Source of the DNA: Carnobacterium viridans
GTDB taxonomy: Bacteria > Bacillota > Bacilli > Lactobacillales > Carnobacteriaceae
DNA: 64,000 bases
Reading direction: 5' to 3'
NCBI RefSeq assembly: GCF_900102725.1
Contig: NZ_FNJW01000008.1
Span: forward strand, 1,488,001-1,552,000
The notes beneath the pieces were generated by a model. It was not told where the DNA came from. It saw only the letters and a list, made by a program, of their open reading frames with translations, and did no database searches. Of the stretch, positions 3,969 through 51,247 are shown piece after piece. The number at the start of each line of letters is the position of its first letter. Position 1 is the stretch's first letter. The translations under genes were made by a program, and so were the position numbers.

Positions 3969-4329
3969 TGAACATTCCTCACGTTCTATATACTAAAAAA
4001 GAATCGTTTCTTTTCCAGCTTTCTAAGTACAAATTTAGTTAAGACTAACAAAAAATAAGCTACGTTGCAATACACTCAACGTATGCAGCTGTTCATCAGA
4101 CTTAAATCACTTGCTGCTTTATAGTATAACATTACACAATCTTTTTGGGGGTGTCTTGACACTATTTCGCAAAACTTTTAACTCTTTTTTCATTTTTTTG
4201 AAACAAAAACAACCTATTCTTAAATTGATTTTTTTTCATGGAAGAGTGAGTACATGTTACTGCTTGGCTTGTTCGACAAACTTATCATTACGACGCAACC
4301 AAGAAGACCGCTTATCTTATCAGCTTAGT

Positions 4330-4430
4330 TACAATTTCTGGAGGAATAGAGGCTGCTTGCCGCTACCCTTCAGACGGTCTCATGGCTCTCGATAAGCAAA
4401 CCCGTCCATTCCAGGAGAAATTTCTTTTAC
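4330..4430 (+). repeat. MITE-like intergenic repeat (copy 2, internally deleted)
   Basis: Both ends of the element are present: the left end (ACAATTTCTGGAGGAATAGA, then CTGCTTG) and the right end (CGGTCTCATGGCTCT, AAGCAAACCCGTCCATTCC, AGAAATT). The middle is about 80 bp shorter than in the complete copy at 20982-21163. The two ends are imperfect inverted repeats of each other. Confidence 0.75.
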
Positions 4431-4470
4431 ACGGTCAAATACTAGTTATTCCACTTATCTTTTTGTATTA

Positions 4471-4516
4471 AAAAAGGAAACAAATATATGGACACCCCCA
4501 CCTATTTGCTTCCTTT
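4471..4516 (-). terminator. Probable alpha-operon (rplQ) terminator
   Basis: A long stem (AAAGGAAGCAAATA paired with TATTTGTTTCCTTT) is followed by a T run on the minus strand. It lies about 225 bp after the rplQ stop. No stronger terminator is seen closer. Confidence 0.65.
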
Positions 4517-4739
4517 CTTAAGACAAAAAAAATCACTTTCTTTTGATGAATTTACCTCTCCTGAATGAGCAAACTCAAATCAGGAGAAGTTTCGAGCTAG
4601 ACTTGGAAACCAATAAAATTGATCCCATCATCATAACACTCTTTGCATACATCTAAAAAGTGAAACACATTGAATTTCAAACAATTTTTGTAAGTACTAA
4701 ATACACGCGGCAACTCGTCATTTTAGCACCTCATTAAAA

Positions 4740-5120
4740 TTAAACTAATTCAATAATAACCATTGGTGCAGCATCGCCGCGACGTGGTTGAGTTTTCATG
4801 ATACGTGTGTATCCACCTTGACGCTCAGCGTAACGTGGAGCAACATCGCTAAATAATTTTTGTAAAACTGATTGAACAACGATATCTTCGCCTTCTTCTT
4901 TAACAGAAGCGACTTCGTTACGTACGAATTCTGCAGCTTGACGACGTGCGTGTAAATCGCCTTTTTTACCTAAAGTAATCATTTTTTCAGTCGTTTTACG
5001 GACTTCTTTAGCGCGAGCTTCAGTTGTTACGATACGTTCGTTGATGATCAAATCAGAAGTTAAGTCGCGTAGCATTGCTTTACGTTGTGAACTTGTACGT
5101 CCTAATTTACGGTAACCCAT
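4740..5120 (-). CDS. rplQ: 50S ribosomal protein L17
   Basis: 126 aa, the usual bacterial length. It begins [20 protein letters not shown], the conserved N-terminal rRNA-binding segment of L17, and ends with the family-typical PMVIIELV. It is the last gene of the infA-rpmJ-rpsM-rpsK-rpoA-rplQ unit. A GGGAGGAAA ribosome binding site precedes the ATG. L17 sits near the exit of the peptide tunnel in the 50S subunit. Confidence 0.98.
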
Positions 5121-5146
5121 TGTACATTTCCTCCCTTGTTACAGTA

Positions 5147-6091
5147 CTAGTCGTCTTGGCGTAAGTTTAAGTCTAATTCAGCTAACTTAAATTTCACTTC
5201 TTCAAGTGATTTACGTCCTAGATTACGTACTTTAATCATTTCAGCTTCAGTTTTATCAGTTAACTCTTGAACAGAATTGATTCCAGCGCGTTTCAAACAG
5301 TTGTATGAACGTACAGATAAATCAAGTTCTTCAATCGTCATTTCAAGCATTTTTTCTTTATGAGTTTCTTCTTTTTCTACCATGATTTCAGCTTTACGAG
5401 CTTCATCTGTTAGATTTACGAAGACATTCAAATGTTCTGTAAGAATTTTAGCTGCTAAACTAACAGCCTCTTCTGGACTAATTGAACCATCTGCCCAAAC
5501 ATCAAGTGTTAACTTGTCAGAAATATTTTTCTGACCCACTCGAGTATTTTCGACTTGATAATTCACACGACTAACCGGGGTGTAAATTGAATCGATTGGT
5601 AATACACCAATTGGCATATCATCTTGTTTGTTGTGTTCAGCTCGTACATATCCTCGGCCTGATTTTGCTGTCATGCGTACGTGGAAACGTGCGCCTTCTG
5701 CAACTGTACAAATGTACAAGTCAGGATTTAGAATTTCAACATCGCTATCATAAATGATATCAGCTGCTGTTACTACTGCTGGACCCTTCACATCAATTTC
5801 AATCGTTTTGTCTTCACCAGAATATAACTTGAGAGCAAGTTTTTTAATATTTAAAATGATTGATGTTACATCTTCAACAACACCATCGACAGTTGAAAAT
5901 TCATGTAATACACCATCAATTTGAATAGTAGTTACTGCTGCTCCTGGAAGCGAAGACAACAAAATACGACGTAGAGAATTTCCTAGCGTTGTACCATAAC
6001 CGCGTTCAAGTGGTTCTACAACGAATTTACCAAACTTGGCATCATCGCTGATCTCAATCGTTTCAATTCTTGGTTTCTCAATTTCGATCAT
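5147..6091 (-). CDS. rpoA: DNA-directed RNA polymerase subunit alpha
   Basis: 314 aa. The N-terminal domain (about 1-230) with the conserved [21 protein letters not shown] assembly segment is followed by a linker and a C-terminal domain (about 245-314), which carries the helix-hairpin-helix region [17 protein letters not shown] and [12 protein letters not shown]. The dimer nucleates polymerase assembly, and the C-terminal domain contacts UP elements and activators. It lies between rpsK and rplQ in the canonical alpha operon. Confidence 0.99.
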
Positions 6092-6164
6092 TCTATCTAT
6101 ACCCCTTTCAAAACGTTAAATTCATGTTACTGAGTGCTACCCGACATAGTGAAGCGGCTCTCAA

Positions 6165-6551
6165 TTAAACACGACGGCGTTTTGGAGGGCGGCATCCATT
6201 ATGTGGAATCGGAGTTACGTCACGAATTGCTGTAACTTCTAATCCTGTAGCTTGTAAAGAACGGATAGCTGCTTCACGACCAGAACCTGGTCCTTTAACT
6301 GCAACTTCTACAGTTTTCATTCCGTTTTCCATACTTACTTTAGCAGCTGCTTCTGCTGCCATTTGTGCTGCAAATGGAGTAGATTTTTTTGATCCGCGGA
6401 ATCCTAAAGCTCCTGCTGAAGACCATGAAATCGCATTTCCATGTACATCTGTAATCATTACGATTGTGTTGTTAAAAGTAGAACGAATATGTGCAACTCC
6501 GCTTTCTACATTCTTTTTAACACGACGTTTACGTGTAACTTTTTTTGCCAT
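6165..6551 (-). CDS. rpsK: 30S ribosomal protein S11
   Basis: 128 aa, normal length. It contains the conserved [14 protein letters not shown] segment and the C-terminal [20 protein letters not shown], where Asn-Gly is the site that forms isoaspartate in other bacteria. S11 forms part of the 30S platform at the E site. It follows rpsM by 23 bp with a strong AGGAGGTAACC ribosome binding site. Confidence 0.98.
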
Positions 6552-6574
6552 GAGGTTACCTCCTTACTAATGTT

Positions 6575-6940
6575 TTATTTTTTTCTGCCTGCAATTGATT
6601 TAGCTGGGCCTTTACGAGTACGCGCGTTGTTTTTCGTGTTTTGTCCACGAACGGGTAAACCACGGCGATGACGTATACCTCGGTATGATCCGATTTCAAT
6701 CAATCGTTTGATGTCTTGGCTTACTTCACGACGAAGGTCACCTTCAACTTTTAATGTATCAATTGTCGCACGAATAGCGTCTAATTGATCATTTGACAAG
6801 TCACGTACACGAATTTCTTCTGATACGCCAGCATCTTTTAAGACTTTTTGAGCTGTTGTTTTACCGATTCCATATACATAAGTTAGAGAAATTACTACAC
6901 GTTTGTCACGCGGAATATCTACACCTGCAATACGAGCCAT
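6575..6940 (-). CDS. rpsM: 30S ribosomal protein S13
   Basis: 121 aa from the ATG at 6940 ([13 protein letters not shown]). An in-frame TTG two codons upstream is possible, but it leaves only 5 bases to the AGGAGGTG ribosome binding site, whereas the ATG has a normal spacing of about 10-11. The helix-two-turn-helix region and the basic C-terminal tail ([15 protein letters not shown]) are conserved. S13 forms bridge B1a/b with the 50S subunit. Confidence 0.98.
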
Positions 6941-6971
6941 TAACAATTACACCTCCTGTTTTTTTAAATGA

Positions 6972-7085
6972 TTATCCTTGACGTTGTTTGTGTTTAGGGT
7001 TTTCGCAAATCACCATAACACGTCCTTTACGACGGATAACTTTGCATTTGTCACAAATTTTCTTTACTGATGGTCTTACTTTCAT
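6972..7085 (-). CDS. rpmJ: 50S ribosomal protein L36
   Basis: 37 aa, starting [20 protein letters not shown] and ending KHKQRQG. The zinc ligands of the C+ form are present: CDKC, then C near residue 27 and H near residue 32. An AGGAGGTAT ribosome binding site precedes the ATG. It sits between infA and rpsM, its universal place. L36 is the smallest 50S protein and stabilises 23S rRNA near the GTPase centre. Confidence 0.97.
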
Positions 7086-7119
7086 GAACTATACCTCCTA
7101 TTTTATTGACGGAGTACAA

Positions 7120-7338
7120 TTATTTAAAGCGATAAGTTATGCGACCACGTGATAAATCGTAAGGTGACAACTCAACTGTGACTTTGTCTCCTGGTAGGAT
7201 TCTAATGTAGTGCATTCGGATTTTACCTGAAACGTGAGCCAATACAACATGGCCATTTTCAAGTTCGACTTTAAACATTGCATTCGGCAAAGTTTCAACG
7301 ACTGTTCCTTCAATTTCAATGACATCGTCTTTCGCCAC
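7120..7338 (-). CDS. infA: Translation initiation factor IF-1
   Basis: 72 aa, exactly the family length. It is a single S1-type OB fold ([20 protein letters not shown] ... RGRITYRFK). IF-1 binds the 30S A site with IF-2 and IF-3. It is first gene of the alpha unit here. The 261-bp gap between adk and infA carries its own promoter (7473-7501). The map gene that lies between adk and infA in Bacillus is absent. Confidence 0.98.
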
Positions 7339-7472
7339 GCCTAGTACCTCCTTAAAATTGTTTCGCGTTAATACGCGATAAACAGTGAGCGCACTTAGCC
7401 CTCACCTTCTATTTTTTTAATCTTCTTATTACTAATACAGTATACCAGCATTGAAAACACAACACCTCGAAT

Positions 7473-7501
7473 ATTGTACCACAAATTAAATATAGTGACA
7501 A
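7473..7501 (-). promoter_or_regulatory. Sigma-A-type promoter of infA-rpmJ-rpsM-rpsK-rpoA-rplQ
   Basis: TTGTCA-N17-TACAAT on the minus strand (-35 at 7496-7501, -10 at 7473-7478). It predicts a leader of about 130 nt before infA. A second possible extended -10 (TGG-TATACT) lies a little downstream near 7438-7446. The leader also contains a hairpin around 7385-7405 (GTGAGGGC...GCTCAC). Confidence 0.65.
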
Positions 7502-7599
7502 GTAGCCTCGCTCGATAACTGATCAAGCAATTTTAACCATGAGCTAGCTGGCTGTGACTTCTATCAAGAAAATCCTGAAGTCATTGTTGCTCTGTTCAT

Positions 7600-8265
<666 letters not shown>

Positions 8266-43128: not shown

Positions 43129-43281
43129 TTACTTCGTTTCACGATGTAATGTATGTTGATTGCAGTATTTACAGAATTTTTTTACTTCTAAGCGTTCTGT
43201 GCGATTTCCTTCATTTACTTTTTTAGAATAATTTCTAGATCCACAAACAGAACAAGCTAAAGATGTTTTTTTTCCACTCAT
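43129..43281 (-). CDS. rpmG: 50S ribosomal protein L33 (zinc-binding form)
   Basis: 50 aa from the ATG at 43281 ([18 protein letters not shown]), after AGGTGAAAAA. Two CxxC pairs (CSVC, CKYC) mark the C+ form. A 25-codon upstream extension has no ribosome binding site and covers the promoter. It lies just before secE, in the sigH-rpmG-secE-nusG order except that sigH is now 7 kb away. Confidence 0.97.
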
Positions 43282-43372: not shown

Positions 43373-44317
43373 TTATTTGAATACTAAACTTATTGCTAAC
43401 AGCACAACTTCACTGGCACTAAATAAAATGATGTTTTTTATAGCAATAACAAATGTCTCCGACTTAACTTGCTTGTTGTTGTACAGAGCTAAGTTTTTCC
43501 TCATTGGGATAATGGTTAGTAATAAGAGCAATAAAATAGGGTGTAATAAACTCAGTAAAACAGCTAAAACAATCACTACATAACTCATGTAGACTAATGC
43601 ATTAAACAATTGAACAGCTCGCTTTTTACCAATATAAAACGGCAAGGTGTACCTGTGATTAAGGATATCTTGTTCTAAATCACAGGTATTGTTCGCCAAC
43701 ATAATATTAGCTATCAAGAATACTGTCGGCAACGACACAAAGAATAATACCAGAACAGAAACCATATTTCCTCCTAACAGAAACAGTTGGCCTTTAAATA
43801 ACAAACTCAATAAACTAAGCTCATCAACATTTACAAAGGCTGCAATAAAAAAGATGCCAAACCCCATAGTCAAACCAGAAATAGGTTCTCCTAAAGGCAT
43901 TCTTGAAATGGGAACTGGCCCAAAAGTATAAAAAATCCCAATAAAGAAGCAGAGAGCTCCTATGATCAACAATACAATATTGGTTCTATAAACTAACCCA
44001 AACCCTAGCAACATTGAACTAACTACCATTCCGACAATCAGATGAATGACGAGTTTTTCTGATAGTTTTTCTTGTCCAATAACATTCACTTCATCTCTAT
44101 AATCTTTATCTTTAGCTTTTCGGTAATCCATTAAATTATTAATAGCTGTTGTTGCCATATCAAAAATCAGCATCGCTACAAAGAACAGCAGTGTATTAAC
44201 AAAGTTAAATGTATTGAAATAATAAGCTGTAAATAATGTTCCTAATAAAATAGGAAATAAACTTGCTAACTTTGTTTGAATCTCTACTAATGTAAAAAAG
44301 GTTTTTATCGACATCAT
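43373..44317 (-). CDS. dmkA: UbiA-type prenyltransferase (DHNA polyprenyltransferase), EET DmkA
   Basis: 314 aa polytopic protein. The two aspartate motifs of the UbiA superfamily are NxxxDxxxxxDxD (N60, D64, D70, D72) and NNTCDLEQD near 205-213. It attaches the polyprenyl tail to 1,4-dihydroxy-2-naphthoate to give demethylmenaquinone. It is the last of the minus arm pplA-fmnB-dmkA of the electron-transfer locus, matching DmkA of Listeria. Upstream menaquinone genes are not in the window. The general family name is MenA. Confidence 0.88.
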   Translation of the reverse strand: MMSIKTFFTLVEIQTKLASLFPILLGTLFTAYYFNTFNFVNTLLFFVAMLIFDMATTAINNLMDYRKAKDKDYRDEVNVIGQEKLSEKLVIHLIVGMVVSSMLLGFGLVYRTNIVLLIIGALCFFIGIFYTFGPVPISRMPLGEPISGLTMGFGIFFIAAFVNVDELSLLSLLFKGQLFLLGGNMVSVLVLFFVSLPTVFLIANIMLANNTCDLEQDILNHRYTLPFYIGKKRAVQLFNALVYMSYVVIVLAVLLSLLHPILLLLLLTIIPMRKNLALYNNKQVKSETFVIAIKNIILFSASEVVLLAISLVFK

Positions 44318-44333
44318 TATCCCTCTTTGATTT

Positions 44334-45401
44334 TTATTTTAATGTAAATGCATCATTTGTTAATTTAAAGGTTTCTTTTAACCCATCTGATACATAAACC
44401 TCTTTATCTTTTGTTACAAATAGTGCATCAACATCTTCTAATGTATTCACGTATTCTAATCCTTCTTTTAACCCTTTAGAGAAAAGTGAAGTTGATAGTC
44501 CGTCACCATCGATTGATTTTTTAGTGATCACACTGACTCCTGCTAACTCATTATCAAATGGATACCCTGTTTCTGGATTCATCAAGTGATGGTAATTCAC
44601 TCCATCAACTTTAAGGAACCGTTCATAAATACCTGAAGTAACGATTGACCTATCGCTTAAAGCTAAAGATCCTATAATCGTTCCACGTGTTTCAAACGGA
44701 TCTTGAATCCCTACATTCCAAGCTGCTCCTTCACCTTTTGCACTATCTCCCATAACATACACGTTTCCACCTAAATCAATAATCGCAGTATCTACTTGGT
44801 GTTCTTTTAACACCTCTACTACTTCATCTGTGATAAAACCTTTAGCAATCGCTCCTAAATCTAATCGCATACCTTCTTCTGGCAAATAGACTGTCTGAGC
44901 TTCATCATCAAACTTTACCTTTGAGTAATCTACTAAGTTCAACGTTTCGTCAATTTCAGATTGTTCTGGTTTCCTGGCATCATCAAAACCAATATGCCAT
45001 AGCTCTGTAATGGGTCCGACTGTCAAATCAAAACTACCAGCAGTACTTTCACTATAATCATATGCCGCCTGTACTAAATAATATAAATCATCCGCTACTT
45101 GGACTGGTTCAATACCGGCTTGTTCATTAATTTTTTCAATCTCCGAGTTCTCATTTCCCTCATCAACCGTAATTAAACCTGCTAGCTCTTCAATTCGATT
45201 AAAAGCCGCATCTAACGCTTCTTGTTTATCTTGATTATAGATGGTAACTTTCACAACAGTTCCCATCAAAAATTCAGTTCGTTCAAAGGGTTCTTTAACT
45301 AACGCACGCTCTTTTGTGTCTTCATTATTTCCACAACCAACAAGCAAGAATAATACCGTTAGTAGGGAGAACATTACTTTCACTATCTTATTTTTTTTCA
45401 T
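44334..45401 (-). CDS. fmnB: FAD:protein FMN transferase lipoprotein (ApbE), EET FmnB
   Basis: 355 aa. Signal peptide with lipobox LVGC23, then the ApbE fold. The conserved HHLMNPETGYP near 275-285, DLGGNVYVMG and the C-terminal SLFSKG segment are present. The enzyme transfers FMN from FAD onto a threonine of target proteins outside the membrane. Its likely target is the adjacent PplA-like lipoprotein with SGAT. It lies 16 bp before dmkA in one transcript. Confidence 0.92.
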   Translation of the reverse strand: MKKNKIVKVMFSLLTVLFLLVGCGNNEDTKERALVKEPFERTEFLMGTVVKVTIYNQDKQEALDAAFNRIEELAGLITVDEGNENSEIEKINEQAGIEPVQVADDLYYLVQAAYDYSESTAGSFDLTVGPITELWHIGFDDARKPEQSEIDETLNLVDYSKVKFDDEAQTVYLPEEGMRLDLGAIAKGFITDEVVEVLKEHQVDTAIIDLGGNVYVMGDSAKGEGAAWNVGIQDPFETRGTIIGSLALSDRSIVTSGIYERFLKVDGVNYHHLMNPETGYPFDNELAGVSVITKKSIDGDGLSTSLFSKGLKEGLEYVNTLEDVDALFVTKDKEVYVSDGLKETFKLTNDAFTLK

Positions 45402-45451
45402 TCAGCATACTCCTTGTTAGATAATTTATGTATATGTTTTCACTAACTTTA

Positions 45452-45490
45452 TTTAAAATAAACGGGTCCTAGAAATACATCTAAGACCCT
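45452..45490 (-). terminator. Hairpin after pplA
   Basis: A GGGTC-TTAGA arm pairs with TCTA-GGACCC with one mismatch, followed on the minus strand by GTTTTATTTT. It would let pplA be made in excess over fmnB and dmkA. Confidence 0.6.
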
Positions 45491-45569
45491 CATATTATGC
45501 CATTTCTAATGGTGCTTTTCAATCTTACTCAAATAGAAACCTTATATTGAAATTAGAATATCCATAGTA

Positions 45570-46094
45570 TTAGTTGTCAATTTCAATTGTCTCCGTTTTA
45601 CCTTCTGCTGCTGCATCAACTAGCTGTTGTGCGTATTCAACAAATAATTCGTGCGAATGAGTTGCACCTGAAACAACTTCTACAGCTGATGGATCTTGCG
45701 CATCTACTAAAGCTTGGTTATAAGCTGGAATGTACTCAGCAGGACCAGTTCCCACTTTATCTTTCATAGCTTTTTGGTACTCTGCATCTTTCGTTTTCAA
45801 CTCTCCAGCATCATTCACATAATCATAAGTAGATTCTGTAATTTGTCCACCTTCAACGGTCATCCCAAAAACAACGCTCCAACCATTGTCGTCAAGATTT
45901 TTTTCTTCTAATAGATAGCTTCCATCTTGTAAAGCAACAGTCTCAGTTGAACTCATTTTTTCAGAACTCGTTGCCTCTGATTCAGCTACTGCTGAACTTT
46001 CTTTACTCGTCGCATCGTCAGAACCACACGCTGCTAGTATAAATGTTGAAGCCAAAACAACTGACGCTAATTTCAAACCGGCTTTAAATCCCAT
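45570..46094 (-). CDS. pplA: FMN-binding (flavinylated) surface lipoprotein, PplA-like with one flavin domain
   Basis: 174 aa. Lipobox LAAC23; a Ser/Glu/Ala-rich linker (24-52); one FMN-binding domain (about 54-165) with SGAT at 142-145, where T145 is the predicted ApbE flavinylation site. Listeria PplA carries two such domains; this protein has one. It is the presumed extracellular electron carrier. It is first of the minus arm, from the promoter at 46180-46208. Confidence 0.85.
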   Translation of the reverse strand: MGFKAGLKLASVVLASTFILAACGSDDATSKESSAVAESEATSSEKMSSTETVALQDGSYLLEEKNLDDNGWSVVFGMTVEGGQITESTYDYVNDAGELKTKDAEYQKAMKDKVGTGPAEYIPAYNQALVDAQDPSAVEVVSGATHSHELFVEYAQQLVDAAAEGKTETIEIDN

Positions 46095-46179
46095 GATATA
46101 TACCCACCCTATTTTTATAGTCTAGTCTTCCTAACGAAAGAATCATACGGCTATTTCATTTGGCAGACTATCTACTAAT

Positions 46180-46208
46180 AGTATAACGACTTTATTTCTA
46201 ATTGTCTA
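46180..46208 (-). promoter_or_regulatory. Sigma-A-type promoter of pplA-fmnB-dmkA
   Basis: TAGACA-N17-TATACT on the minus strand (-35 at 46203-46208, -10 at 46180-46185). It leaves a leader of about 80 nt. Confidence 0.65.
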
Positions 46209-46219
46209 TATTTTCACAT
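46202..46219. promoter_or_regulatory. Candidate Rex-type operator
   Basis: TTGTCTATATTTTCACAT agrees with the Rex consensus TTGTGAA-N4-TTCACAA at 11 of 14 fixed positions. It overlaps the pplA -35. The left half is the poorer half. Confidence 0.3.
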
Positions 46220-46638
46220 GAATTTATAATTTCCGTTCTAAAAATTATTCATTCTATTTCTCACACTAAACAAACGTCTAAATAATAGCTTTTTGAGTTA
46301 TTTTTTGTATATCTGAAAACCAATGCTTCCTACAGAACACTTATTTTTATTTTCACAAAATTATTAGCATCCATTTATTTTTCCTTCTATATCAACCTTT
46401 TAATGCTGACTTGTTTATTTGTATTACATTTTTTTCCAAAGAATAAAATTCATGATTTTTCGCTACTAATACTGAATTTGTCAATAATATGACAACTATT
46501 TTTGTTTCTTATTTTCTATTTTTCTTTGCTTTAATACGATTTAGAAAAGAAGATTGAGAATAATTTCATTAAAATTTATTTTTTTCAATAATTTTTTTAT
46601 CTTTAAAAATCTTTTTTCGAAAAAGAACCTTTAAAACA

Positions 46639-46667
46639 TAGACATATTCATTTATTTTTTGTATAAT
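46639..46667 (+). promoter_or_regulatory. Sigma-A-type promoter of ndh2
   Basis: TAGACA-N17-TATAAT on the plus strand (-35 at 46639-46644, -10 at 46662-46667), giving a leader of about 107 nt. Confidence 0.7.
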
Positions 46668-46780
46668 ATGTTTATCATATGGTTGTGAAACTTTTAACTA
46701 ACTTGATAAGCACTTATTATTATTCAATTTATCTATACTATATATATTTAAAAAAATGGTTGAAAAAAGGAGCTAGAAAA

Positions 46781-48625
46781 ATGACTCAAACAAAAGTAGT
46801 TATTATTGGCGCTGGTTTTGCAGGGGTTTCTGCTACAAAACAGCTAGCAAAAAAACTTAAGAAAAATAAAGATGTAACGATTACGCTAATCGATCGTCAC
46901 TCTTACCTTACTTATATGACCGAATTGCACGAAGTAGCTGGGGGACGTGTTGAACCTGAAGCTATTCAGTATGATTTACAACGATTATTTGCACGTAAAA
47001 AAAATGTTAACTTAGTAACCGATAACGTTACAGCAGTTGATCATGATAAAAAAGTAGTACTAACTGAAAATGGCTCTTATTCTTATGACTATTTAATTCT
47101 AGGTATGGGTGGAGAACCAAATGACTTTGGAACACCTGGAGTTAAAGAACACGGATTCACTCTTTGGTCGTTAGAAGATGCTGTTCGTCTACGTCACCAT
47201 ATTGAAGCTACCGTTGCTGCTGCAGCTATTGAACACGATGCTGCAAAACGTGCCGCTATGATGCGTTTTGTGATCTGTGGTTCTGGATTTACAGGTATCG
47301 AAATGGTCGGAGAACTTTTAGATTGGAAAGATGTTTTAGCGAAAGAGTACAAATTTGACGCTTCAGAGATCGAACTGATCGTTGTTGAAGCTGCTCCAAC
47401 TATCTTAAACACTCTTCCTCGTCAAGACGCAGATAAAGCTGAAAAATTCATGACGAAAAAAGGCATCAAAATCATGAAAGATTCTCCAATTATTAGTGTT
47501 GGAGCTGAATCTGTTTTATTGAAATCTGGTGAAGAACTTCCTACCAAAACATTAGTATGGACTGCAGGTGTTAAAGCTAACACAGATACAGCAGAATTTG
47601 GAATGGAACAAGCGCGTGCTGGACGTTTAGTTGCGAATGAGTTTATGGAAGCGAAAGATTTAGAAGATGTTTATGTTATTGGCGATCTTGTCTACTATGA
47701 GGAAGAAGAGGGAAAACCAACTCCTCAAATCGTACAAGCTGCTGAACAAACTGGACATACTGCTGCTGTTAATGTTATTGCAGCTATTGAAGGAAAAGAA
47801 AAACACAAATTTGAATCAAATTACCAAGGAACAATGGTTTCTATCGGTTCAAAATATGGTGTTGCTTACTTAATGGATAAATTCCACCTTAGCGGATTTT
47901 TCGCTATGTTGATGAAACACATCGTTAACTTAAAATATTTCTTTGACATTCGTTCTGGTTACTACATGGTGCAATACTTGTTCCATGAATTCTTCCATAT
48001 TAGAAATCAACGAAACATTTTCCGTGGTCACCTTTCTCGTTATGGGAATGTTTTATGGAGTGTTCCTTTAAGAGTCTTTTACGGTAGTATGTGGTGTTTT
48101 GAAGGGATCAAAAAAGCCTTTGGTTTATTTGGTTCTCAAAGTTGGTTTGGCGATAATGTAGCTTTACCATTCTCTTGGTTGCAAGATGTAACTAGTGGAG
48201 CTTCAGAAGTAGTAGAGGAAGTTGCAGAACCAATTTTTGGTTTAAGCTACGTCTATGGCGAAGAACCTATGATGGTTTTCTCTAAAGCTCCTGATTGGTT
48301 TAACAGCATTATGCAATTTATGATTCCTACTCCAGAAGTTGCTTTGATTTTCCAAAAATTCATGACTTTCGTAGAAATTGCTATTGGATTAGCTTTGATT
48401 GCTGGATTGTTCACTTGGTTGGCTAGTGCAGCTACGGTTGCTTTAGTTGTCAGCTTTACATTATCTGGAATGTTTTACTGGGTAAATGTTTGGTTCGTAT
48501 TTGCAGCTATTGCTTTGATGAATGGCTCTGGACGTGCATTTGGTTTAGACTACTATATTATTCCATGGATTCAAAAAGTAGCCGGTAAATGGTGGTATGG
48601 TACACCAAGATCTTTATACAAATAA
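46781..48625 (+). CDS. ndh2: Type II NADH dehydrogenase with C-terminal membrane domain, EET Ndh2
   Basis: 614 aa from the ATG at 46781, after AAAGGAGCTAGAAA. Residues 1-400 form the NDH-2 flavoprotein: FAD motif GAGFAG at 10-15, NAD motif CGSGFTG near 165-171, and YVIGDLVYYEE near 293-303. Residues about 420-614 add a long extension with several hydrophobic segments (DoxX-like, near 525-600), which ordinary NDH-2 lacks. It passes electrons from NADH to demethylmenaquinone. It opens the plus arm of the electron-transfer locus. Confidence 0.92.
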   Translation: MTQTKVVIIGAGFAGVSATKQLAKKLKKNKDVTITLIDRHSYLTYMTELHEVAGGRVEPEAIQYDLQRLFARKKNVNLVTDNVTAVDHDKKVVLTENGSYSYDYLILGMGGEPNDFGTPGVKEHGFTLWSLEDAVRLRHHIEATVAAAAIEHDAAKRAAMMRFVICGSGFTGIEMVGELLDWKDVLAKEYKFDASEIELIVVEAAPTILNTLPRQDADKAEKFMTKKGIKIMKDSPIISVGAESVLLKSGEELPTKTLVWTAGVKANTDTAEFGMEQARAGRLVANEFMEAKDLEDVYVIGDLVYYEEEEGKPTPQIVQAAEQTGHTAAVNVIAAIEGKEKHKFESNYQGTMVSIGSKYGVAYLMDKFHLSGFFAMLMKHIVNLKYFFDIRSGYYMVQYLFHEFFHIRNQRNIFRGHLSRYGNVLWSVPLRVFYGSMWCFEGIKKAFGLFGSQSWFGDNVALPFSWLQDVTSGASEVVEEVAEPIFGLSYVYGEEPMMVFSKAPDWFNSIMQFMIPTPEVALIFQKFMTFVEIAIGLALIAGLFTWLASAATVALVVSFTLSGMFYWVNVWFVFAAIALMNGSGRAFGLDYYIIPWIQKVAGKWWYGTPRSLYK

Positions 48626-48653
48626 AAAAATAAGTTTCATATAGCAGTATGGG

Positions 48654-48692
48654 TGAGTGAAGGTAGGTCTCTTCTACCTCCGCTCATTTTAT
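48654..48692 (+). terminator. Terminator after ndh2
   Basis: GAGTGAAGGTAG pairs with CTACCTCCGCTC (two imperfect positions) and is followed by ATTTTATTA. It lies between ndh2 and the eetB-like gene and probably limits readthrough. Confidence 0.65.
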
Positions 48693-48860
48693 TATGTCTT
48701 AAAAAGGTTACTGAACCCATGTGTATAACGATAAAAAATGTTAAGATAGAAAGAAGCATTCTACTATTATTCTTCTTTGTCTCTTGTTATTTTTATTCAA
48801 TTATTAAAACAAGCAATCATTTAGTTAAATTCATTTTATAGTAGATAAGGGCTGGTGTTT

Positions 48861-49430
48861 ATGACTAGAAATCAAAAACTTGTGTATATTGCATTGTTAG
48901 CTGCTCAAGCTGTTATCTTAAGCTTAGTCGAACGAAGTATTCCTTTTCCTTTTGCTTTTGCTCCAGGTGCAAAACTTGGGATTGCTAATCTAATCACTAT
49001 TGTCGCTATTTTCACTTTACCATTAAAGGATAGTTTTACAGTAGTGTGGATGAGACTTATTATGACCACTCTTTTAGGCGGTACACTTTCAACCTTTATG
49101 TATAGTTGTGCTGGAGCTTTACTTAGTTATATTGGTATGTTGCTAGTCAAACAACTTGGGCCAAAACGTGTCAGCATCATTGGGATAAGTGCTACAGGCG
49201 GCATTTTGCATAATGTTGGTCAACTAGCTGTCGCAAGTTGGATTGCTCAAACATGGACGGTTATGCTGTACTTACCGATTTTATCTTTTATGGGGATTTT
49301 ATCCGGTATCGCTATCGGCATTGCCGCTAATTACTTGATGACTCACGTACGTACCTTAAAAAACTTCCAACAACAGACGCAACAACCCGCTAAAAAAAAG
49401 CGCCGCAACACTACTTACGTAAATTCTTAA
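48861..49430 (+). CDS. eetB: Gx-transporter / heptaprenyl diphosphate synthase component I-like membrane protein, EET EetB
   Basis: 189 aa from the ATG at 48861, after AAGGGCTGGTGTTT. About five to six hydrophobic segments, with the family-typical ERSIPFPFAFAPGAKLGIANL near 26-46 and SATGGILHNVGQLAVA near 112-127. Such proteins resemble ECF S-components. In Listeria EetB is needed for extracellular electron transfer. A basic tail (KKKRRN) ends the protein. The NusG-domain partner EetA, normally beside it, is absent. Confidence 0.85.
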   Translation: MTRNQKLVYIALLAAQAVILSLVERSIPFPFAFAPGAKLGIANLITIVAIFTLPLKDSFTVVWMRLIMTTLLGGTLSTFMYSCAGALLSYIGMLLVKQLGPKRVSIIGISATGGILHNVGQLAVASWIAQTWTVMLYLPILSFMGILSGIAIGIAANYLMTHVRTLKNFQQQTQQPAKKKRRNTTYVNS

Positions 49431-49470
49431 GCACAACCACCATAACTTATGAAACGAAAGGGGAATACAC

Positions 49471-50451
49471 ATGAAGATTCATCCTATGTGGGAAGCCTAC
49501 CCTGAATTACAATCTGAATTAATACAAACTATTGAATTAATAGATTCAAGAATTCATTTGCGAAATAAATCTATTGAACATGCTCTAGTTGATATGCTGA
49601 ACACAGGCGGAAAATTAGTACGTCCTGCTTATACTTTGCTTTTTTCAACTTTTGGAGAAGAGCATGATCCTAACCGAGCACGTGCTTTCGCTGCAGCTAT
49701 TGAAGTGTTGCATATGGCAACTTTAATCCATGATGATATTATTGATGATTCACCTAAAAGACGTGGCCAACATTCGATTCAATCAAGATACGGCAAAGAT
49801 ATTGCAGTTTATGCTGGCGATTATTTATTTACTGTTTCATTTAAATTAATAGCAGATTATTCTAATTCTATGAAACAAATGCAAATCAATACTAAAGGGA
49901 TGGAAAAAATCTTGATGGGTGAAATTGATCAAATGCATTTAAGATACAACCAAAAAATAACGATTCGCAATTACTTGACTCAAATATCTGGTAAAACGGC
50001 TCAATTATTTGCTCTTTCTTGTTATTCTGGAGCTTTAGAGAGTGGACAAACTGAACGATTTGCTCGAAATTGCTATTATATTGGAAGTCATATTGGAATG
50101 GCTTTTCAAATCAAAGATGATATTTTAGACTATACTCAAACCACAGATGGGTTTGGAAAGCCTGTTTTAGAAGATGTAAGACAAGGCATTTATTCTGCTC
50201 CTCTTATTTATGCTATGCATAAAAAAAATGCTCCTTTTAAAGAATTACTTGAAAAAAAAGACCAGCTAACAAAGAAAGAAACACAAACAATCCAACAATT
50301 TGTTATTCATTCTGGTGGTTTAGATGAAGCAAAACGTTTGGCTGAAAAGTACACCGATAAAGCTTTGAAACGGATTGATCAATTACCAGACAGTTCAGAA
50401 AAAGAAATGATTCGTAACTTAACCCTGTCACTATTAGACAGAACGATTTGA
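49471..50451 (+). CDS. dmkB: Polyprenyl diphosphate synthase, EET DmkB
   Basis: 326 aa. First aspartate-rich motif DDIIDD at 88-93 and second KDDILD near 215-220, with the GGKLVRP substrate site at 46-52. It is a trans-prenyltransferase of the heptaprenyl/hexaprenyl synthase family making the tail that DmkA attaches. It is 40 bp after eetB, same strand. This pairing of one large subunit with an EetB-type neighbour is typical of the electron-transfer cluster. Confidence 0.92.
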   Translation: MKIHPMWEAYPELQSELIQTIELIDSRIHLRNKSIEHALVDMLNTGGKLVRPAYTLLFSTFGEEHDPNRARAFAAAIEVLHMATLIHDDIIDDSPKRRGQHSIQSRYGKDIAVYAGDYLFTVSFKLIADYSNSMKQMQINTKGMEKILMGEIDQMHLRYNQKITIRNYLTQISGKTAQLFALSCYSGALESGQTERFARNCYYIGSHIGMAFQIKDDILDYTQTTDGFGKPVLEDVRQGIYSAPLIYAMHKKNAPFKELLEKKDQLTKKETQTIQQFVIHSGGLDEAKRLAEKYTDKALKRIDQLPDSSEKEMIRNLTLSLLDRTI

Positions 50452-50489
50452 CTTATTGTTTAATCTTTTACTTCTCTCTAGAATAAAAC

Positions 50490-50534
50490 GTAAAAAGACA
50501 AGTTATTGGGAAAACCCGATAACTTGTCTTTTTA
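50490..50534. terminator. Bidirectional terminator between dmkB and sigH
   Basis: A 21-bp nearly perfect stem (GTAAAAAGACAAGTTAT...GGG) ends in a 4-base loop. It serves the convergent dmkB and sigH transcripts and is the strongest hairpin in the window. Confidence 0.92.
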
Positions 50535-50647
50535 CTTGAAACCTTACGAGAATGGTAGACTCTTTGTTATGGATGGATCCAACAAAAACAAGAAAGCGTT
50601 ATCATTTAACCGTATTTATAACACGTTTAATTACCGTTAAGAAATAG

Positions 50648-51247
50648 CTAAGATTCTAGTGTTCGTTTTAATTTGCGCTTGCAACGATCTAAAGCATTTT
50701 TTATTTGCAGACTATCACACTGTAACTGCTCAGCAATTTTGTCTACTTCGTTATTCTTTAAGTAAAGAGAAAACACTTTTTGTTCAAACTTTGACAATGT
50801 ATGGTGATAACCTGCTAATTTTTCTTTAACCTGTAAGATATCTAATGCGGATAGCCCTTCTTTTCCATTCGTTATGTATTGAGGACTTATTCCTTTTTCT
50901 ATCATACCATCTAAAGACTCAGCAATTTTTTCTATTTTTCGTTTCTTAGCCATATCTTTTCGAATCAAGCTAAAAATATGGTGTTTAAAATTTAGTTTGT
51001 AGAAATTTCCGAACGTGTGCCCTTTATCTTGATCATACGTTTGAATCGCTTTGTGGAAGACGATTCGCGCTTCTTGCCATAAATCCTCTAACTCATAACT
51101 TTTAAGGTAGTATTCTCTCGTCATTTTTGTTACTAAGGGATGATAACGCTTAAACAAAATTTTGAATGGATACCCATCTCCATTTTTAATCATGAGAATC
51201 AATTCTTCGTCACTCATAAGATCAATTTTTTCATCTTCATCTGCCAA
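50648..51247 (-). CDS. sigH: RNA polymerase sigma factor SigH (sigma-30 family)
   Basis: 199 aa from a TTG at 51247, after GGAGGGACAATT. Region 2 (YHPLVTKMTREYYLKSYELEDLWQEARIVFHKAIQTYD, about 35-72) and region 4 (about 140-195) are visible, with regions 1 and 3 short. It is the SigH/ComX type that controls competence in Lactobacillales. It lies after rae1 as in Bacillus, but rpmG is displaced by the electron-transfer locus. The competence-related comC is in the same window. Confidence 0.88.
   Translation of the reverse strand: MADEDEKIDLMSDEELILMIKNGDGYPFKILFKRYHPLVTKMTREYYLKSYELEDLWQEARIVFHKAIQTYDQDKGHTFGNFYKLNFKHHIFSLIRKDMAKKRKIEKIAESLDGMIEKGISPQYITNGKEGLSALDILQVKEKLAGYHHTLSKFEQKVFSLYLKNNEVDKIAEQLQCDSLQIKNALDRCKRKLKRTLES

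Follow-up and report, generated by a model that had tools for sequence, protein, structure and literature searches.

Flavin-based extracellular electron transfer genes between sigH and rpmG in Carnobacterium viridans: gene content, chromosomal position and candidate control signals

In Bacillus, the genes sigH, rpmG, secE and nusG are direct neighbours. In the stretch of Carnobacterium viridans DNA analysed here (called the window, 64 kb, G000:C8:1488001-1552000 of a 2.76 Mb genome), six genes of a flavin-based extracellular electron transfer (FLEET, or EET in short) system stand between the first two, which raises the question of how old this arrangement is and how the genes are controlled there. 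We consider it likely that this is a FLEET locus of the kind found in Listeria and in lactic acid bacteria (LAB), that its position stems from an ancestor of several Lactobacillales families, with later reordering, erosion and movement, and that it consists of four transcription units around a regulated divergent region. The genes as such are the ordinary ones of a known EET system, and it is their history and control signals that are of interest. In the following, G denotes genomes, f families, g genera and L fetched loci, and family f7 is called Listeriaceae-type because two named Listeria fall with it in the tree of Ndh2.

Gene content and transcription units

The initial annotation had described six genes in two divergent arms at 43373-50451. 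All of them are found as claimed, in coordinates, strand and layout:

43129..43281, minus strand: flanking rpmG (L33; Ribosomal_L33), then secE (SecE) and nusG (NusG)
43373..44317, minus strand: dmkA, UbiA-family 1,4-dihydroxy-2-naphthoate (DHNA) prenyltransferase (UbiA PF01040 1.1e-22; NF009926 371 bits, cut-off 316)
44334..45401, minus strand: fmnB, ApbE-type flavin adenine dinucleotide (FAD):protein flavin mononucleotide (FMN) transferase, a lipoprotein (LVGC; PF02424 3.5e-85)
45570..46094, minus strand: pplA, lipoprotein with one FMN-attachment domain (VVSGATHS; NCBIfam PplA 2.2e-58)
46781..48625, plus strand: ndh2, type II NADH dehydrogenase with a C-terminal membrane part (Pyr_redox_2 3.3e-44)
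48855..49430, plus strand: eetB, ECF-S-like FAD exporter subunit (Hpre_diP_synt_I PF07456 8e-49)
49471..50451, plus strand: dmkB, long-chain prenyl diphosphate synthase (polyprenyl_synt PF00348 4.2e-65)
50648..51247, minus strand: flanking sigH-like sigma factor (Sigma70_r2)

The Pfam and NCBIfam families support the EET identity that had been given to this set, as Ndh2 with a membrane extension, PplA, FmnB, DmkA, DmkB and EetB are all present. The membrane part of Ndh2 gives weak DoxX/DoxD matches in Pfam, and the best ndh2 matches in the genomes of the family are 67-95% identical. Translation of ndh2 most likely starts at 46781, after AAGGAG, rather than at the first ATG of the open reading frame at 46679.

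For pplA, both the lipobox (LAAC) and the single SGAT site claimed earlier are present in the sequence. The reading as a lipoprotein with a flavinylation site therefore stands, while its length does not, the protein being shorter than implied and having one FMN domain. It has no Pfam match at 0.001, and its match to NCBIfam PplA covers profile positions 8-176 of 302 with 197.8 bits, below the cut-off of 325. With about 50% identity to either domain of the Listeria-type protein, it is, judged from its sequence, a one-domain PplA. When short and long forms are assigned by length, with the boundary at 230 amino acids (aa), 23 of the 94 frames in the fetched loci are short and 71 longer, some genomes being counted twice. 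The short form occurs in the Carnobacterium-type genera g1 and g3, Isobaculum, G014, G015, G017, G069, Granulicatella, Atopobacter and Marinilactibacillus, and further in Lacticigenium, G022 and two Vagococcus, and the long one in G001 (g2), the Listeria types, the other Enterococcaceae read and G100.

In the proposed electron path, Ndh2 would oxidize NADH and reduce a demethylmenaquinone-type quinone, the tail of which would come from DmkB and be joined by DmkA. The quinone electrons would then pass to the FMN fixed on the lipoprotein PplA and from there to outside acceptors. EetB would supply FAD to FmnB, which in turn would flavinylate PplA.

The same divergent arms, dmkA-fmnB-pplA and ndh2-(eetA)-eetB-dmkB, make up the FLEET locus of Listeria monocytogenes (lmo2634-lmo2641), for which the Listeriaceae-type genome G105 (L109) was read. 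However, the Listeria locus has a two-domain PplA, an eetA gene and an ECF-T gene (fmnA) beside dmkA, whereas in the window PplA has one domain, eetA is absent from the locus and no fmnA adjoins it. The Carnobacterium-type system can in this respect be described as a pared-down variant of flavin-based EET.

Three hairpins divide the arms:

45464..45489, minus strand: terminator hairpin that separates pplA from fmnB (-17.7 kcal/mol and z -5.3 for 45455-45500)
48652..48687, plus strand: terminator-like hairpin after ndh2, at the spot of eetA in Listeria (-19.9 kcal/mol and z -4.1 for 48645-48700)
50490..50535, plus strand: very strong hairpin at the end of the dmkB arm (-34.4 kcal/mol and z -8.8 for 50445-50535)

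The hairpin after ndh2 has a weak T-run and was not picked up by a simple terminator scan. Four units are predicted, namely pplA, fmnB-dmkA, ndh2 and eetB-dmkB, with pplA and ndh2 as single-gene units because the hairpins set them apart. This would fit what is described, in passages of PMC8837199, for the FLEET locus of Lactiplantibacillus plantarum, another fermentative host that uses outside DHNA, where DHNA plus iron induced ndh2 and pplA alone among the FLEET genes. The same passages give complete FLEET loci in 11 of 38 LAB genera, and the string "Carnobacter-" does not occur in the main text of that source. A known riboswitch or leader at the locus was considered and rejected, since Rfam at gathering scores gives zero such matches within 43373-50451. 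No tRNA genes are found in the 64-kb window.

The position between sigH and rpmG

The initial annotation took the position as an insertion into an ancestral sigH-rpmG-secE-nusG order. This order is supported in two Listeriaceae-type genomes, G105 and G091, which read cysS-mrnC-rlmB-yacP-sigH-rpmG-secE-nusG. Here sigH and rpmG are 103 and 319 bases apart, and the EET genes are located elsewhere. That the EET genes interrupt this synteny in the window is also borne out, but other genomes have the insertion as well. In a survey of 198 genomes of the order, an ndh2 match (threshold 1e-60, some matches partial or distant) was obtained in 118, of which 101 lie outside the window's family. Within the family, ndh2 is less than 6 kb from nusG in 15 of 18 genomes, the exceptions being G014 and G015, where the distance is 47-78 kb, and G009, which has no ndh2 match. 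The locus was read gene by gene in the window and in G001, G003-G007, G010-G012, G016 and G017, and the proximity in G002, G008 and G013 is from coordinates alone. Outside the family, where the site counts are lower bounds, ndh2 lies within about 8 kb of nusG in at least five genomes of two families, G028, G062, G069 and G131 of f4 and G100 of f9. Of these, G028 is Granulicatella seriolae, and in Granulicatella the rpmG side alone was recognized. In G100 the full Listeria-like order, with eetA and a second dmkA-like gene, is flanked by sigH and rpmG.

A recent insertion in the window genome or genus would account for the interrupted synteny, and nothing else speaks for it. Since the same site is found in other genera and families, at the counts just given, it was rejected, and we regard it as extremely improbable. 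The entry into the site is old rather than recent, because so many relatives have it in common. A search of the literature retrieved no paper that links EET with rpmG and sigH.

The question is then whether there was one entry or several. It is unlikely, although to be taken seriously, that EET genes were inserted or transferred independently and repeatedly into a permissive spot beside rpmG. What argues against this is the common orientation of the loci. Among the loci read, dmkA is at the site in the window and in 16 others, and in every one of them no other EET gene lies closer to rpmG; eetB or dmkB faces sigH wherever sigH is found beyond the locus. The relics in f6, of which three genomes were read at the site, point in the same direction. 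Two of them (G022 and G042) retain eetB alone between rpmG and sigH, with ndh2 about 250 kb away, and in Lacticigenium the locus is split, with fmnB, pplA and eetB at the site and a different contig carrying dmkA, ndh2 and dmkB.

Several observations weigh against a single entry and in favour of independent ones. The junction differs in Isobaculum, where the EET genes lie between yacP and a sigH-like gene that stays adjacent to rpmG. Also the f4 loci are one-stranded and reordered; in G069 the locus is between sigH and rpmG, its second arm is reordered and shares the strand of the first, and other genes take up about 3 kb ahead of rpmG. Furthermore, the Ndh2 tree (59 rows by a quick method, with Enterococcus/Tetragenococcus thinned to 13 hand-picked loci and some genomes present twice, as named and unnamed records) splits the window's family, with Isobaculum, g2, g4 and g6 apart from g1 and g3. 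Isobaculum falls outside, g2 stands alone, g6 goes with f6, and g4 (G014 and G015) goes with G069 of f4 (100). On this tree the label 'at rpmG' needs six changes, five of them forced by starred branches. Since G014, G015 and G069 (L019, L021 and L025) share not only the Ndh2 grouping but also the one-strand order eetB-ndh2-eetA-dmkB-pplA-fmnB-dmkA, their likeness suggests transfer of the whole locus. The Listeria types are set apart (99) and the Enterococcus/Vagococcus types are together (98), while two long rows, G100 and Atopobacter, are placed unsurely. Finally, on a short and weakly supported NusG tree the Enterococcus/Vagococcus types, with EET elsewhere, fall among the site-bearing Carnobacteriaceae (95/96), with f4, f6, g4, g6 and G100 outside this group.

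The Enterococcus/Vagococcus systems have the same gene set as the window, linked eetA in 0 of 10 named Vagococcus loci and, in two Vagococcus, a one-domain PplA. They differ in that the genes are not at rpmG, and in the four f2/f8 loci of these types that were read, no sigH was found adjoining rpmG.

The Listeria-type site is, by eye, beside rpsJ-rplC rather than rpmG. In two Listeriaceae-type loci (L109 1268-4380 and L122 11454-14522) the EET arm runs through dmkA and the ECF-T gene to rpsJ-rplC of the S10 operon, likewise by eye. As the two end by another ribosomal operon, such places may be permissive, which would be in line with independent insertions. In G100 and in the Enterococcus avium/raffinosus group, another dmkA-like prenyltransferase gene comes after dmkA (L055, L061-L063, L065, L107 and L027).

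In view of the eetB relics and of the orientation that the loci have in common, we favour one old entry, after which the locus would have moved and would in some cases have been transferred; separate entries are less likely. The locus would then have arrived between sigH and rpmG in an ancestor of several Lactobacillales families, many of which would since have seen it rearranged, eroded or relocated. In this sense the chromosomal position can be seen as an old one that the relatives share, at which relics and ongoing losses are observed.

Losses, missing genes and the supply of quinone

In G009, of the same genus as the window, dmkA, fmnB, pplA and ndh2 are not at the site, and in their place there is about 1.3 kb with two transposase-like fragments, one with an integrase core and one without a Pfam match. 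Since eetB and dmkB remain, with these fragments beside them, G009 represents a loss and not an original empty site. It is a natural same-genus loss that can serve as a comparison strain. In G006, pplA and fmnB are broken and a transposase-like gene (weak Pfam matches) precedes rpmG, G003 is without pplA and fmnB at the site, and in G005 pplA was not found there.

These four genomes speak for a locus in decay, retained chiefly for its part in quinone or prenyl metabolism while the genus no longer uses EET. The supply of flavin and quinone could be taken to point the same way. No fmnA adjoins dmkA or the locus in the window. Matches to the ECF-T (CbiQ) model number three in G000, two in G010 and one each in G009, G011, G012 and G013, that is, a single match in four of the six genus genomes; with the same model the Listeria-type FmnA scores 165 bits and the Enterococcus-type match near its EET genes only 22.6. 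For MenB, the best score in G000 is 148 bits against a cut-off of 342.7. The cut-off is exceeded in four of 24 genomes (G001, G002, G018 and G023) and in none of the six of the genus. As no MenB passes it in the genus, the DHNA head group, the quinone precursor, is probably taken from outside, MenB being the sole gene checked. However, L. plantarum performs EET with DHNA taken up from outside, according to PMC9888254, and the window genome has open frames for all six genes and conserved promoter boxes (see below). We therefore regard decay with disuse as rather improbable.

The absence of eetA between ndh2 and eetB in the window is shared by other genera. An eetA-like gene is nearby in 57 of the 78 named loci with dmkB in view, the divergent Atopobacter copy included, and the 21 loci without one include Carnobacterium, Granulicatella, Vagococcus and Tetragenococcus. 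This absence need not stop EET, because deletion of eetA in Listeria left iron reduction as in the wild type, with EetB and FmnA required for FAD export, as stated in passages of PMC9973259.

A lone NusG_II membrane protein, encoded after prs (L130 5451-5897) in all six genus genomes searched, is a paralogue of EetA. That it might be a relocated eetA was considered and rejected, since on a tree that includes 23 of the 68 linked eetA rows it belongs to a separate clade (100/99). This clade also holds unlinked copies of G018 (Enterococcus-type) and G024 and dmkA-adjacent copies of G022 and Atopobacter. The window genome has two NusG_II genes outside the locus, the one after prs among them, and both cluster with the clade of unlinked paralogues, apart from EetA.

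Candidate operators in the divergent region

The region between pplA and ndh2 spans 0.69 kb, and the two electron-handling genes would share its regulation. The following features are located there:

46180..46208, minus strand: predicted pplA promoter TAGACA-17-TATACT (promoter scan)
46202..46219, minus strand: box B, ATGTGAAAATATAGACAA (minus strand), overlapping the pplA -35
46478..46495, no strand assigned: palindrome TTGTCAATAATATGACAA, largely conserved in four aligned genus loci
46639..46667, plus strand: predicted ndh2 promoter TAGACA-17-TATAAT, near-consensus (11 of 12)
46683..46700, plus strand: box A, TTGTGAAACTTTTAACTA, just 3' of the ndh2 -10, a candidate Rex-like operator

The box A pattern TTGTGAAnnnnTTAACT is found in 10 of the 11 ndh2 upstreams of g1-g3, among them one named Carnobacterium metagenome-assembled genome put with g3 by the tree; it is missing in G003, where the region is gone. 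In g5, g6 and f6 it is absent from all four upstreams. When each of these 10 upstreams was shuffled 1000 times, the pattern never occurred, but both box patterns were written after the sequences had been seen, so that the shuffles are not a blind test. Box B is present in 11 of the 15 divergent regions examined, g6 and f6 genomes included. The palindrome TTGTCAATAATATGACAA, some 145 bases ahead of the ndh2 promoter, is matched at one mismatch in 31 of 100 window shuffles; as chance matches are this common, its conservation is the main argument for it.

We now turn to the possible regulator. Among the Rex operators of Firmicutes, that of Staphylococcus aureus is TTGTGAAW4TTCACAA (PMC2883068). 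Box A retains TTGTGAA and a related second half, with two mismatches to this operator. The second half is nevertheless different, reading TTAACTA in nine of the 10 copies that are conserved and TTAACTT in the remaining one, compared to TTCACAA. The genome encodes two Rex proteins (218 and 222 aa), in both of which the Rex N-terminal domain scores above its cut-off, and Rex is named as universal in two LAB families in passages of PMC3616900. Genome-wide counts speak against Rex, since, with up to two mismatches allowed, 21 places match the consensus and 37 the reversed control, which is no enrichment. One of the 21 places is, by coordinates, just upstream of the second rex gene, and among the neighbours of 14 of them, inspected by eye, no adhE- or ldh-like gene was recognized. 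An initial Rex pattern whose second half has 8 bases matches the genome at the window site alone (forward 1, reverse 0; 1 + 1 for the reversed control). In the literature passages found on EET, Rex and ndh2, Rex control of EET genes is not reported. Boxes A and B are accordingly candidate Rex sites with an unproven regulator, and they offer a testable handle on how a fermenter turns EET on.

One can speculate further that the system is a redox-switched, pared-down EET, in which a Rex-like NADH sensor would sit on the pplA and ndh2 operators, one housekeeping ECF-T would, in some genomes (G011-G013), handle the import of flavin as well as the export of FAD, a single FMN domain would be enough and the quinone precursor would come from neighbours, the site being ancestral to most non-Listeria Lactobacillales and lost in Enterococcaceae. 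Taken as a whole, this picture is improbable.

A second flavinylation locus is located about 130 kb away (L125, G000:C8:1394000-1408000, 4039-8228). A Rex-like box lies between its divergent genes in five of the six loci checked, all five of the genus (L003 and L005-L008); L004 has the locus without the box. The locus encodes three proteins, of which one is an old-yellow-enzyme with FMN_bind at its C-terminus, another combines two FMN_bind with a PAS domain, and the third is a divergently encoded ApbE; as no signal peptide was seen in them by eye, their location may be cytosolic.

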